From Bacteroidota bacterium (GTDB lineage: Bacteria > Bacteroidota > Ignavibacteria > Ignavibacteriales > Ignavibacteriaceae), in contig JAKALM010000001.1 in assembly GCA_021824145.1 (NCBI GenBank), forward strand, positions 496,001 through 560,000: a DNA stretch of 64,000 nt, read 5' to 3'. The notes below the pieces were generated by a model. It saw only the letters and a list, made by a program, of their open reading frames with translations, was not told the DNA's origin and did no database searches. This document shows, piece after piece, positions 11,220 through 46,085 of this stretch. The translations under genes were made by a program, and so were the position numbers. Each line of letters begins with the position of its first letter. Position 1 is the first letter of the stretch.

Positions 11220-11246
11220 TAAACTTTTTTATTCAATCACCGATAA
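11220..11246 (+). promoter_or_regulatory. Sigma-28 (FliA) promoter of fliC
   Basis: TAAACTTT (starting 11220) and ACCGATAA (11239-11246) are separated exactly as in the sigma-28 consensus TAAAGTTT-N11-GCCGATAA. Transcription would start near 11253, giving a leader of about 95 bases. fliA and flgM are both in this window. Confidence 0.88.
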
Positions 11247-11303
11247 TGATGTTGAGATGCAGATCTCATAAATAATTAACAAGTAAGCATAAGGCTTACA
11301 TAC

Positions 11304-11342
11304 CGGGAAAGGATTCCCGATAACTTAAAATTACACGGAGGT
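11304..11342 (+). promoter_or_regulatory. Candidate CsrA-binding leader of fliC
   Basis: A 6-bp hairpin (11304-11309 with 11314-11319) carries the tetraloop AGGA at 11310-11313. Downstream, ACACGGAGGT at 11333-11342 includes the Shine-Dalgarno site and matches the CsrA consensus ACANGGANGT at every fixed position. The two GGA motifs are 26 bases apart, a spacing one CsrA dimer could bridge. The design resembles the Bacillus subtilis hag leader. No csrA or fliW gene is in the window, so the regulator is inferred. Confidence 0.6.
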
Positions 11343-11347
11343 TTTTT

Positions 11348-12169
11348 ATGGCTTTCACAGTTAACTCAAACTTAGGCGCAATGGATGCCTACAATGCTTT
11401 GGCTCAAACCCAACAGCAAACCCAAACAGCTCAATTACAGCTCGCTTCTCAAAAACGTATTAACTCAGTATCAGATGATACATCTGGATATCGTGTTAGT
11501 AAAGAGCTGCAAGCTAAAATTGGATTAATGAATTCTGCTGTTACAAATATTGACTCTGCAAAGAGTTTGCTTTCAACTGCAGAATCTGCTTTATCCAGCG
11601 TTAATGATCTTATAATTCAGATCCAAGGTAAAGTATCTCAAGCAAGTGACCCTACAAAGAACTTGTCATCTCTTGCTAACGATATCAATTCTCTAGGAAA
11701 TGAAATAAGTGCTATTTTTGCTAATACTGTATTTGACAGTACTGCATTGTTAAGCGGCAGCACCGTTCCTAGTGGCGCTAATTTTGTGTTCCAGACAGGT
11801 GTCACTGCAACTGGTACTGAAATGACAACAATTAATTTTGGTACTTTAAGCACACTTAGCCTTGCTTCTATTTCAGGTTCTGGCGCAACTTCTTCTAACA
11901 TTACTTCAATTAATGTTTCCGGCTTGCAGACAGCAGTTCAAAATGCATTAGGAACTATTGGTAACTTTACCCAGAGATTGAATGTTAAAGAAGATTATCT
12001 TAACTCGGCGATCTCCAATGCACAGTCAACTGTAGATAGATTAACCGGCGCAGATGTTGCGAAAGAACAACTTTCATCAACACAGGGTCAAATTGCTCAG
12101 CAGATTTCAACAACTATGCTTTCACAATTGAACTCTGCACCTCAACAACTTTTAAGATTATTCCAATAA
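11348..12169 (+). CDS. fliC: Flagellin
   Basis: A 273-residue filament subunit. The conserved N-terminal D0/D1 helices are clear (VNSNLGAMDAYNAL, RINSVSDDTSGYRVSKELQAKI). So is the C-terminal pair (ERLxVKEDYLNSAISN-like segment, AKEQLSSTQGQIAQQ, ending LLRLFQ). The middle, about residues 140-190, is short and rich in Ser, Thr and Gly, so D2/D3 domains are nearly absent; the Ser/Thr could be sites for O-glycosylation (inference). GGAGG lies 5 bases before the ATG. The gene has its own sigma-28 promoter and a terminator directly after it, so it is mainly a single-gene transcript. Confidence 0.97.
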   Translation: MAFTVNSNLGAMDAYNALAQTQQQTQTAQLQLASQKRINSVSDDTSGYRVSKELQAKIGLMNSAVTNIDSAKSLLSTAESALSSVNDLIIQIQGKVSQASDPTKNLSSLANDINSLGNEISAIFANTVFDSTALLSGSTVPSGANFVFQTGVTATGTEMTTINFGTLSTLSLASISGSGATSSNITSINVSGLQTAVQNALGTIGNFTQRLNVKEDYLNSAISNAQSTVDRLTGADVAKEQLSSTQGQIAQQISTTMLSQLNSAPQQLLRLFQ

Positions 12170-12222: not shown

Positions 12223-12232
12223 ATTGAAGGTT

Positions 12233-12580
12233 ATGAGTAACATGTACAGCACAAAATACAATAACAATAAAAGCAAATTAAATCCTTATCTTGTAAAAGA
12301 GATAATGGAAGCAACTCCCCAGCAGCTTTTAATAAAAATTTATGATTTTGCAATTACAAGCTGCCAAAAGCATGATCTTTATAAAACAAACGCTGCATTG
12401 CAGCAGTTAATTAGTGCACTTAGATTCGATACGGATGAAGTTAGAAAAGTTTCTATTGGATTTCTAAAATTATATCAATATTGCCAGGATCAGATGAGAA
12501 AGAAAAATTACAGTATGGTACTTGAAATATTAACGGAATTAAGAAAGTCCTGGCTGGAAGCTTTTAGTAAGTTAGGATAA
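12233..12580 (+). CDS. fliS: Flagellar export chaperone FliS
   Basis: About 115 residues, the usual FliS size. The family signature is near the N-terminus: NPYLVKEIMEATPQQLLIKIYDFAITSC, followed by an all-helical body with LRFD. FliS binds the disordered C-terminus of flagellin and keeps it monomeric until export. The start is uncertain: a TTG at 12224, ATG at 12233 and ATG at 12242 are in frame. GAAGG (12226-12230) sits too close to 12233 and suits 12242 somewhat better. It lies between the fliC terminator and fliD, 4 bases ahead of fliD. Confidence 0.9.
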   Translation: MSNMYSTKYNNNKSKLNPYLVKEIMEATPQQLLIKIYDFAITSCQKHDLYKTNAALQQLISALRFDTDEVRKVSIGFLKLYQYCQDQMRKKNYSMVLEILTELRKSWLEAFSKLG

Positions 12581-12584
12581 AATT

Positions 12585-14411
12585 ATGGCAACTACTACAA
12601 GCTCAGTATCTTCAACACCTTCAAATTCAATCAGCAGTCAAATTGATGCTTTAGTAGCTTCCTATACCCAGCAAGAAACCAATCAACTAGTTGTACCTCT
12701 TCAGAATAATCAAAAGAATTACCAAAATCTTTCCGACGCATACGATACATTATCTACAAAGCTTACTACTTTGCAAGGCACCGTAAATTCCATGCAGCAG
12801 ACTGGAACAAGTTCTGTTTTTGAAGATAAAACAACAACTTCATCAAACAGTAATTTTGTAACTGCAACAGCTACCGGTGCCGCATCGGCAAGCGGTTACC
12901 AAATAAGAGTTAGCCAGCTTGCAAAAAGCGATGTTGTTGTTTCTCAAGACCAAACAACTTCAACTGCAAATGCTATTACTGGAACTCATACTTTTGATAT
13001 AGCAGGCGGAGGAGGTACTGCCGGACAGTTGATAAGCCATGTATCGGTAACTTTTGGCGCCAGCGAAACTAATCAAACAGCAATGCAGAAAATTGCTAGC
13101 GCTATAAATTCAAGCCAGGCGGTTGTTACATCATCTGCTAAAACTGATGCCGCGGTTCCAGCTGGAGGTGCATCTACTTCTTTTACTATTAATCTTAATG
13201 GAACTACTACTACAATACCGGTTACAAATGTCAGCTCATATGGAGCAATGATGGATAATATTGTAACTCAAATTACTACTTTAGTTCCAGGTTTAACAGT
13301 ACAGAAACTTACAAATACACCAAGTGCTGGACAAGATCAACTTCAGATAAAGGTTAATAATCCAACAAATTATATTACGATTACTCCTCCTACTAGTGGA
13401 TATGATCCTGTTACAGATTTAGGGATTGGCGTTACAAATCTGGTTGCTGCTTCCGGAATTGTTAATGCATCTGTTTTTTCTCCTACTAGCACAACTTCTC
13501 AATTATCTTTAACAGCTACAAAAACTGGTTTAGACTATCGTGTGGAAAATTTAACCGATACTAATGGCGGCACTGCTTTGGCTTCAGTTGGACTAAATTT
13601 AGGATCAACTCGCCCTACTTTCAGTCAATCAACTTCTCCAAATACACCTGGGTTTATTTATCCGGACACCACAACAACTGGTAATCAACTAAATTCTGTG
13701 TTTACTTTTAATGGGCTTTCAATTCAAAGAAATTCCAACAGTGTAAGCGACCTTGCTACCGGAGTCACTTTTAATTTGAACGCAGTACAGCAGACGACTG
13801 ATCCAACTGCAACAATTACAGTACAACCTGATGTTACTACAATTACATCTACAATCCAAAGTTTTATTACTCAGTTTAATGATGTTTATACTAATATAAA
13901 GAATAACAGCATCAGCAGTGAAAGTGAACGTGGAGTTTTTGTCGGGGATGCAAATGCAAGCACACTACTTCAAACGTTTTCTTCATTAACATATTCTCAA
14001 ATACCAGGTTTACCATTAGGTAATTTAAGTTATCTAGCTCAGATTGGAATTTCATTTGATACAACAAACGGATTATCCATATCAGATAATAATGAATTAA
14101 AAAATCAGCTTACAGCTAATCCTGATCAAGTTGGGGCTTTATTTAATTCTTCGAGTGGTATTGCAACAAGAATTTATAATGAAATAACTCCTTATCTTGG
14201 GGCCGGCGGTTATTTGGCAAAAGGTAAAGCAATATTTCAAACTGATATACAAAGTTTACAAGATAGAATTACTAATGAAAAAGCCCAAATTGATAAAGAA
14301 GGTCAGACTTTAAGAGATCAATATGTGCAGCTTCAAGTGGCTATGTCTCAGCTTTCCTCCACTTATGCAATGTTTGGAGTAGGAAACACATCAAATAATT
14401 TATTTGGTTAA
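12585..14411 (+). CDS. fliD: Flagellar filament cap protein FliD
   Basis: 608 residues, at the long end for the family. The N-terminal FliD domain is clear (SISSQIDALVASYTQQETNQL, residues 16-36, then a coiled coil). The C-terminal FliD_C domain covers about residues 370-600 (VFTFNGLSIQRNSNSVSDLATGV; LGAGGYLAKGKAIFQTDIQSLQDRI). The Ser/Thr-rich middle forms the outer cap domains. FliD sits at the tip of the filament and folds flagellin as it emerges. It is translated 4 bases after fliS with an AGGA ribosome site. Confidence 0.95.
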   Translation: MATTTSSVSSTPSNSISSQIDALVASYTQQETNQLVVPLQNNQKNYQNLSDAYDTLSTKLTTLQGTVNSMQQTGTSSVFEDKTTTSSNSNFVTATATGAASASGYQIRVSQLAKSDVVVSQDQTTSTANAITGTHTFDIAGGGGTAGQLISHVSVTFGASETNQTAMQKIASAINSSQAVVTSSAKTDAAVPAGGASTSFTINLNGTTTTIPVTNVSSYGAMMDNIVTQITTLVPGLTVQKLTNTPSAGQDQLQIKVNNPTNYITITPPTSGYDPVTDLGIGVTNLVAASGIVNASVFSPTSTTSQLSLTATKTGLDYRVENLTDTNGGTALASVGLNLGSTRPTFSQSTSPNTPGFIYPDTTTTGNQLNSVFTFNGLSIQRNSNSVSDLATGVTFNLNAVQQTTDPTATITVQPDVTTITSTIQSFITQFNDVYTNIKNNSISSESERGVFVGDANASTLLQTFSSLTYSQIPGLPLGNLSYLAQIGISFDTTNGLSISDNNELKNQLTANPDQVGALFNSSSGIATRIYNEITPYLGAGGYLAKGKAIFQTDIQSLQDRITNEKAQIDKEGQTLRDQYVQLQVAMSQLSSTYAMFGVGNTSNNLFG

Positions 14412-14751: not shown

Positions 14752-15015
14752 ATGGATATTAAACCCCTTTCTAATAATATATATTTTCCAAAAGAATTAC
14801 CGCAAAACGGTAAGGATCAACAAAAACAACAGAATTATAAAATACAGGATAAATTGGAGCTTTCGCAAGAAGTTCAGAATATGAAAAATCCAAACTTACA
14901 AGATACAAAACTTGCAAAAATCTCAGAGAAGATTAAAAATAATTATTATAATTCTGATGAGGTAATTAATAAAGTAGCAGATAAAATTTATAACGAAATC
15001 TCAAAGTCAAAATAG
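14752..15015 (+). CDS. flgM: Anti-sigma-28 factor FlgM
   Basis: 87 residues with the FlgM pattern. A disordered, Gln- and Asn-rich N-terminus is followed by DKLELSQEVQ (residues about 34-43). The C-terminal sigma-binding helices read LAKISEKIKNNYYNSDEVINKVADKIYNEI, matching the family layout IK-x-I-x-x-G-x-Y-x-V-D-x-x-x-V-A. FlgM holds FliA inactive until the hook is complete and is then exported. It ends the fliS-fliD operon, and a large palindrome follows at 15067-15106. Confidence 0.82.
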   Translation: MDIKPLSNNIYFPKELPQNGKDQQKQQNYKIQDKLELSQEVQNMKNPNLQDTKLAKISEKIKNNYYNSDEVINKVADKIYNEISKSK

Positions 15016-44260: not shown

Positions 44261-44330
44261 ATAAAAAAGTTCAAGTGTAAGAGTAAGTTCAAGTAAAGTT
44301 AGAGTTTATAAATAATTAATTAAATAACAT

Positions 44331-44410
44331 AGAGCGGGACCTTTCGAGGGCGCTCTGAATCCGGCGGACTGATTGAAGCCGGGTTAAATTTCAGAAAAAA
44401 CCTAGGAGGT
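44331..44410 (+). promoter_or_regulatory. Structured 5' leader of flgE
   Basis: Two hairpins precede the flgE ribosome site. The first is AGAGCG/CGCTCT (44331-44336, 44351-44356) with an inner CCT/AGG stem capped by a TTCG tetraloop. The second is an 8-bp stem (44358-44365 with 44378-44385) whose 12-base loop begins GGA. The Shine-Dalgarno AGGAGGT (44404-44410) follows. I could not match it to a riboswitch class. The GGA motifs would suit CsrA (inference). No promoter was recognised in the gap. Confidence 0.6.
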
Positions 44411-44414
44411 TAAA

Positions 44415-46085
44415 ATGGCACTTCTTAATTCACTTTTCTCTGGCGTTTCAGGATTGCAAAACTTACAATCTATGATGGATGTTATTGGTAATAACATTGC
44501 AAATGTTGATACAATCGGCTTCAAAAGTTCTAGAGTTACTTTCAGCGATACATTCAATCAGCTAATAAAATCTGGTACAAGTCCAACAGAATCAACAGGT
44601 GGTACCAATAGTTTTCAAGTCGGTTTAGGAATGAAAATAAATTCAATCGACAGGAACTGGAACCAGGGAACTTTTCAAACTACCGGAATTTCAACTGACC
44701 TAGCTTTGCAAGGTCCGGGAATGTTTATTCTTAACAGTAACGGACAAAATTTTTATTCAAGAGCTGGTGCATTTATTTTTGATGCAAACGGTAAGCTTGT
44801 TGATCCGCAAAATGGTGCTGTTGTTCAAGGAAAAGTTGCAAACGGTTTAGGACAAATTCCACAAGGGACTACTACTCAAGATATCGTTGTAGATAAAAAC
44901 TTAAAGCTTCCGGCAATTAAAACACAGAATGTTTCTTGGGGAGGAAATTTACAAAGCAGCTCTCCTACAATTGCAACTAACACAGTAAATCTAACAGACA
45001 GCTTGGCTGGGACCACTCCATATAATGCCCCAGCATCTACAACAGACATACCTATCGTTGGCAAAGATGGTACAAATTATACATTAAAAGTATCTTATAC
45101 ACAGAGCAGTGGAACCTGGACACCAAGTTACACAGTTTATGATTCTAAAGGAGTTGCCTTAACAACTCAACCCACAGCAACACCAGCTCTTAGTGCATTA
45201 ACTTTTAATTCTACAGGCAACTGTACGAATTCGCCAGTAACTATAGCAAGCGCCGACAATAATATTTCTTTCAGTTTAGATTTTTCTAAAATTACTTTGG
45301 CAGCTTCGTCAACAAATTCTACAAGCATACCTGCAATTGTTAATCAGGGCAATACCGAAGCTCCTGTTAATGGTTCTGTAAGCATTTATGATTCGTTAGG
45401 TAATGCACATACTTTAAGTGTACAATTTGATCATGCTTATGGCAGTACTTGGAATTGGAAAGTATCAGTTCCTTCAACAGACGGTGGAACTTTTACTGGT
45501 GCTACTAGCGGAACAGTAACTTTCGATCCAAATGGACAGATTCAATCAATTACACAAGGAGGAGTTACAGTACCAGGAATCCCGCCAATTCCACAGATAA
45601 CTTATAACCCTGGCAACGGTGCAGAAGCGCAGCCAATTAATTTGAATTTCGGTTCTGGTACTGCAGGTATTACACAAACATCACTGTCATCTCAAGTTGC
45701 TGCATTAAAACAGGATGGTTCTGCTTCGGCAACTCTTACAAATTTGAACATTGATCAATATGGCAATGTAGTTGGAGTTTTCTCTAATGGTAATTCGAGA
45801 ACATTAGCACAAGTAATGATAGCCACATTTACAAACCCGAATGCACTTGTAAGCGCTGGAAGTAATATGTATTCAGTAGCTGCGAATTCTGGAGACCCAT
45901 TAATAAATGCACCGGGAGAATCTTCAGCAACAACAATTCAATCCGGAGCTTTAGAACAATCAAATGTAGACCTATCGCAGGAATTTACAAACATGATAGT
46001 TTCACAAAGAGGTTTTGAAGCTAATGCAAAAGTTGTAACTACTTCAGATCAGCTTCTTCAAGATATTACGAATTTAGTTAGATAA
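44415..46085 (+). CDS. flgE: Flagellar hook protein FlgE
   Basis: 556 residues. The N-terminal motif LFSGVSGLQNLQSMMDVIGNNIANVDTIGFKSSRVTFSDTF and the C-terminal motif IQSGALEQSNVDLSQEFTNMIVSQRGFEANAKVVTTSDQLLQDI are diagnostic. The middle is enlarged (Ser/Thr-rich domains) relative to the 402-residue Salmonella hook protein. It polymerises into the hook outside the cell. It has its own structured leader, a strong ribosome site, and a terminator directly after it, which suggests separate tuning of hook-protein amount. Confidence 0.97.
   Translation: MALLNSLFSGVSGLQNLQSMMDVIGNNIANVDTIGFKSSRVTFSDTFNQLIKSGTSPTESTGGTNSFQVGLGMKINSIDRNWNQGTFQTTGISTDLALQGPGMFILNSNGQNFYSRAGAFIFDANGKLVDPQNGAVVQGKVANGLGQIPQGTTTQDIVVDKNLKLPAIKTQNVSWGGNLQSSSPTIATNTVNLTDSLAGTTPYNAPASTTDIPIVGKDGTNYTLKVSYTQSSGTWTPSYTVYDSKGVALTTQPTATPALSALTFNSTGNCTNSPVTIASADNNISFSLDFSKITLAASSTNSTSIPAIVNQGNTEAPVNGSVSIYDSLGNAHTLSVQFDHAYGSTWNWKVSVPSTDGGTFTGATSGTVTFDPNGQIQSITQGGVTVPGIPPIPQITYNPGNGAEAQPINLNFGSGTAGITQTSLSSQVAALKQDGSASATLTNLNIDQYGNVVGVFSNGNSRTLAQVMIATFTNPNALVSAGSNMYSVAANSGDPLINAPGESSATTIQSGALEQSNVDLSQEFTNMIVSQRGFEANAKVVTTSDQLLQDITNLVR

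Follow-up and report, generated by a model that had tools for sequence, protein, structure and literature searches.

The leader of the flagellin gene at this locus raises the question of whether flagellin translation is controlled by CsrA and its antagonist FliW in a lineage far removed from those where such control is known. The original prediction read the leader as a two-site CsrA target resembling that of Bacillus hag, in a low-GC, outer-membrane-bearing lineage that proves to be the order Ignavibacteriales. This reading is supported by the presence of csrA and fliW and by conservation of both the hairpin loop and the downstream site, and we are highly confident that the leader is a two-site CsrA target in a FliW-CsrA flagellin checkpoint like those of B. 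subtilis hag and C. jejuni flaA. The putative sites, their conservation and covariation, the linked single csrA and fliW genes, and the shared distribution of leader, csrA, fliW and flagellin are demonstrated in the sequences of this genome and its relatives.

Within the window (the whole 64,000-nucleotide stretch analysed here), the gene that would be regulated encodes a flagellin of 273 aa (11348..12169, plus strand, ATG at 11348; Pfam Flagellin_N and Flagellin_C), and is followed on its 3' side by the genes for the flagellin chaperone FliS (12224..12580, plus strand; FliS at 28.2 bits, cut-off 26.7) and the filament cap FliD (12585..14411, plus strand; FliD_N and FliD_C). A pattern scan placed a sigma-28-type promoter element, TAAA-N16-CCGATAAT, at 11220..11247 on the plus strand, so that the transcript probably starts at about 11253 with a 16-nt hairpin, giving a leader of roughly 95 nt. 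This hairpin (TGAGAT-GCAG-ATCTCA, 11253..11268), the likely 5' end of the transcript, is followed by a second one (GTAAGC-ATAAG-GCTTAC, 11283..11299) whose loop ATAAG lacks GGA, and then by the putative upstream CsrA site, the hairpin CGGGAA-AGGA-TTCCCG (11304..11319; loop 11310-11313, GGA 11311-11313), all three being predicted by folding of the plus strand. The putative downstream site, ACACGGAGGT (11333..11342, plus strand), overlaps the ribosome-binding site. The original prediction thus located the AGGA tetraloop to the base, downstream of the sigma-28 element, and was equally right in placing 26 bases further on a ribosome site that fits the CsrA consensus. A CsrA dimer held on a loop GGA can bridge to a Shine-Dalgarno (SD) site 10-63 nt away (PMC7652899), and the 26 nt from GGA to GGA in this leader fall within that range. 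The leader region folds far better than its shuffled versions (z = -4.5 against 200 shuffles), shuffling the window leader yields a GGA-loop hairpin (loop of 4-6 nt, stem of 5 bp or more) in 3.3% of cases, and Rfam gave no match above threshold for either the window or the leader.

The genome carries exactly one csrA (83 bits, E = 5e-23) and one fliW, adjacent to one another and some 58 kb from flagellin, about 5.5 kb outside the window on its right-hand side. They lie in the order flgN - flgK - flgL - MotA-like - MotB-like - fliW - csrA - response regulator (flgN named by Pfam, and flgK, flgL, the MotA-like and MotB-like genes and the response regulator by reading of the sequences), in keeping with the expectation that they would be found near flgK/flgL. 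Both proteins have matches among the solved structures of FliW and CsrA, 5dmb with its FliW-bound CsrA among them, and structure alignments show that CsrA retains L4 and R44, which are critical for RNA binding. At 85 aa versus 61 in E. coli, it is extended at the C terminus, a feature that FliW uses elsewhere, and its similarity to the FliW-bound CsrA chain 5dmb_D extends to residue 66. Position 55, a residue that matters for antagonism by FliW in B. subtilis, carries T in place of N. A search with Rfam for a CsrB-like antagonist sRNA gave no match within the window.

To follow the leader through its relatives, here the order Ignavibacteriales (Ignavibacteriaceae, Melioribacteraceae, Stygiobacter, Ignavibacterium and Melioribacter), we collected 73 non-redundant leaders on the sole criterion that a flagellin homologue be preceded by a sigma-28 -10 element; all carry CGATA[AG]T at the equivalent position, this being the element by which they were picked. 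A GGA within a loop of 4-6 nt on at least 5 perfect pairs is present in 59 of the 73 (2.6% in shuffles), in 57 together with ACANGGANGT, and GGA is the commonest hairpin-loop triplet of all 64. About one fifth of the leaders miss the strict hairpin criterion; in several of these the hairpin is shorter, bulged or an alternative one, and one of them, L021, carries a different RNA element. The spacing between GGA motifs is mostly 22-43 nt. For covariation we aligned 53 leaders, and since 20 of the 73 (long or bulged hairpins, near duplicates) were omitted, the figures describe the main leader type: all six stem pairs show changes on both sides, there are 94 double-change cells versus 27 in shuffles, none of 500 shuffles reaches the observed covariation, and 93.7% of cells are paired in the aligned stems versus at most 45% when the stems are slid. 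The loop GGA is invariant in this alignment, as the original prediction would have it.

The consensus loop is a hexaloop, C[ANGGAN]G, also written C[AAGGAW]G, and as such agrees both with CANGGANG, a hexaloop of high affinity (PMC4894983), and with RUACARGGAUGU, the consensus from SELEX (PMC7652899), the ANGGA hexaloop being a known high-affinity CsrA loop (PMC4894983). The window hairpin is closed by an A-U pair, the relatives' consensus by C-G. SELEX ligands mostly have four or fewer pairs (PMC7652899), and the affinity of CsrA for the window hairpin may differ because its A-U-closed stem is 6 bp long and G+C-rich.

The other two hairpins of the window leader have different histories. Relatives show an excess of 5'-end hairpins like that at 11253-11268 (TTGAGA...TCTCA): 35 of 73 leaders form a stem of 5 bp or more no further than 30 nt from the -10 element, versus 15% of shuffles. 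This hairpin possibly protects the transcript. The hairpin at 11283-11299 had no counterpart in the relatives' leaders that were inspected; it looks like a GGA hairpin that lost its GGA, and one relative (L034) has two GGA hairpins, one after the other.

The downstream site is kept even more widely, ACANGGANGT being present in 70 of the 73 sigma-28 flagellin leaders. Taken by itself ACANGGANGT is weak evidence, with 2 matches in the 64 kb versus 0.75 expected. Among 69 gene starts in the window and adjoining DNA only flagellin matches at least 7 of the 8 fixed positions, and GGAGG lies upstream of just two of 69 (window and L004), flagellin and flgE, a hint that this lineage makes little use of Shine-Dalgarno sequences. 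In the relatives' loci ACANGGANGT precedes the start of none of 164 non-flagellin genes (the lone exception in the neighbouring-gene listing was a flagellin missed by the filter) and GGAGG precedes about 4 of the 164, a scarcity that makes the strong ribosome site of flagellin itself unusual in the lineage. In many relatives the SD site forms a small hexaloop hairpin (flank pairing 127 versus 63 expected, reached by none of 2000 shuffles); in the window the stem around it amounts to two pairs. ACA before NGGAGGT is kept in flagellin leaders, and A precedes GGAGG in 18 of the 70 flagellin leaders versus 22 of 27 flgE leaders (flgE read by eye; Fisher p = 7e-7), from which we conclude that the flagellin site is more than a strong SD. 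Neither the existence of a csrA homologue nor the conservation of loop and ACANGGAGGT in relatives, on which the original prediction depended, is in doubt: ACANGGAGGT and the hairpin loop are kept, with strong covariation of the stem.

The distribution of the genes parallels that of the leader. csrA and fliW occur in the same 40 of 59 relatives and are always neighbours; all 37 relatives with a clear flagellin have both genes, 19 of the 59 have neither flagellin nor csrA, 2 of the 59 (draft genomes) have csrA and fliW without a detected flagellin, and one (G032) has both genes and a marginal flagellin match. Across the 245 genomes of the class, fliW was counted in 83 and csrA in 84, and a covariance model of the leader was positive in 59. 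csrA is present in 55 of these 59 versus 29 of the 186 leader-negative genomes (p = 2e-28, a value that overstates independence because the genomes are related). With FlgK of this genome as query, there was no match in the four leader-positive genomes without csrA (the query is possibly too remote for the distant ones), and these four likely reflect gene loss or assembly gaps rather than counter-examples.

In its own genome the window leader is the best match to the model at 51.7 bits, with the next at 29.2, or 22 bits lower. Class matches of 34-50 bits were flagellins in about 14 of 20 inspected, the rest being mixed and unconvincing, and outside the Ignavibacteriales the stronger matches that were inspected were again flagellins, without flagellin being asked for. 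A wider CsrA regulon drawn from the second-tier matches in the genome (at most 29 bits, model R1) was not supported. Those matches include an ftsZ-like leader (L114), whose predicted fold has no GGA hairpin, and the flgE leader, which matches the model through its SD and A-rich flanks only. In another family, a gene encoding a secreted-protein-like non-flagellin (L187; G097:C27:3750-3830, minus strand) has an upstream GGA hairpin (GGGCAGGGATCGCCC) and a CCGATAAC element, and is a possible additional CsrA target.

The flgE leader has a structure of its own. Directly before flgE (44415-46085; FlgE_D2) lies a conserved two-hairpin RNA (44330-44414) recognized by covariation and by its covariance model. 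Hairpin 1 is GAGCG-GGA-CCT...AGG-A-CGCTC (consensus GAGCGGGACCT..AGGRCGCTC), hairpin 2 is GATYCGGC-YGACYGACTGAN-GCCGRATC (RNA consensus GAUYCGGC-YGACYGACUGAN-GCCGRAUC), and both are followed by a strong SD, AACCTNAGGAGGTT. DNA similarity to this leader extends to 30 of the 59 relatives, 9 of 16 pairs change on both sides with none of 500 shuffles reaching the covariation (RNAalifold structure), and among the 245 class genomes the model finds the RNA in 46. In the relatives read, and in two divergent families checked, it precedes flgE. It has no Rfam counterpart. It is a candidate new cis-regulatory RNA and may be a newer find than the flagellin leader. A few genomes have a second copy: in G242 it lies upstream of flagellin, and in L021 (1400-1500; relative G049) a flgE-type RNA directly before flagellin takes the position of the usual GGA hairpin, which suggests that flagellar genes share a trans-acting factor.

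Several other explanations of the flagellin leader were considered. That it simply gives a highly abundant protein a strong SD, with mRNA protection by 5' hairpins and no part for CsrA, would agree with the enrichment of 5'-end hairpins and with the rarity of GGAGG at gene starts of the lineage, given which GGAGGT could serve to raise the expression of an abundant protein; yet it leaves unexplained the GGA that never varies in the loop of a covarying hairpin, the kept ACA, the free base before GGAGG compared with the AGGAGG preference of flgE, and the co-occurrence with csrA and fliW, and we regard it as very improbable. Still less credible is recognition of the hairpin by some other RNA-binding protein or sRNA, with a coincidental resemblance to CsrA sites. 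The unrelated conserved RNA of flgE shows that other RNAs exist in flagellar leaders of the class, whereas the flagellin loop and SD site both fit the CsrA consensus and accompany the presence of csrA.

A closer variant accepts that CsrA binds the leader and places its main effect in mRNA stability or in titration of CsrA rather than in blocking the ribosome. Precedents exist, as the C. jejuni flaA leader also titrates CsrA (PMC4894983) and B. subtilis CsrA also reduces hag transcript levels (PMC6529632). However, almost every leader has its second site on the ribosome-binding site, and for titration there is no comparably strong leader elsewhere in the genome (as judged by a model tuned to flagellin leaders), making this variant unlikely in our view.

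We therefore favor the FliW-CsrA checkpoint with translational block, whose working here would follow B. subtilis and C. jejuni, where FliW takes off CsrA and flagellin takes off FliW (PMC7652899, PMC4894983, PMC6529632). The hairpin at 11304-11319 would anchor one CsrA dimer through its GGA loop, the dimer's second RNA-binding face would reach ACACGGAGGT 26 nt downstream, and the bridging protein would cover the ribosome-binding site and keep flagellin from being translated. FliW, the product of the gene immediately upstream of csrA, would remove CsrA from the leader. Since unexported flagellin would bind FliW, its build-up in the cytoplasm would shut off its own translation, and export through the finished hook would turn translation on again. 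Flagellin synthesis thus very probably stops when flagellin export stalls, as in Bacillus and Campylobacter. The further notion that CsrA control forms a second layer on FliA/FlgM has the sigma-28 element as its single basis at this locus. An 87-aa ORF at 14752-15015, 3' of fliD, is placed where an FlgM-like protein might be expected, and a search with it gave no family match that would identify FlgM.

More speculatively, and with considerable doubt on our part, CsrA in Ignavibacteria might be a dedicated flagellar gate and not a global regulator, with flagellin and flgE forming a small strong-SD set where GGAGG is otherwise scarce, the flagellin site held by CsrA and flgE carrying an undescribed structured RNA of its own, such that two RNA switches would time late flagellar assembly. 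Our literature search returned no description of CsrA in Ignavibacteria and a passing mention only of CsrA-FliW in Bacteroidetes, and in a survey of FliW distribution Bacteroidetes, Chlorobi and Ignavibacter are absent from the main text (PMC4682653). With covariation as evidence, the present data place a probable FliW-CsrA checkpoint on flagellin in a class that is related to Bacteroidota, consists mostly of uncultured bacteria and has, as far as we found, no report of regulation by CsrA; a covariance model and a concrete RNA are now at hand for testing. They also support the view that flagellin homeostasis is an ancient role of CsrA, perhaps its first one, since csrA in this order always accompanies fliW and the set of genomes carrying it is nearly that of the flagellated ones.

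Among known systems, the E. coli glgC leader shares the tethering of a CsrA dimer by a high-affinity hairpin-loop GGA site and its bridging to the SD (PMC7652899). It differs in that glgC is not a flagellin, and in that its CsrA antagonists are the CsrB/C sRNAs and not FliW. The likeness to Bacillus, drawn in the original prediction, is apt in gene order as well as site layout: in Bacillus fliW and csrA are adjacent and behind the flgK/flgL genes, as they are here. Unlike in B. subtilis, which belongs to a different phylum, two MotA/MotB-like genes here separate flgL from fliW, flagellin is about 58 kb off and CsrA residue 55 differs. As in B. subtilis hag, there are two CsrA sites (here predicted), one of them over the SD (PMC7652899). 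Of published systems, C. jejuni flaA comes nearest in detail. CsrA binding is proven there (here it is inferred from sequence), and the flaA leader carries two ANGGA hexaloops separated by 21 nt, of which the second lies on the ribosome site (PMC4894983). Its leader is 45 nt long with a spacing of 21 nt, compared with 26 nt in a leader of about 95 nt with an extra 5' hairpin here, and its fliW lies apart from csrA, whereas the two are adjacent here. Common to both are a sigma-28 gene, an upstream ANGGA hexaloop hairpin, an ANGGA on the ribosome site, conserved compensatory changes and FliW in the genome (PMC4894983).
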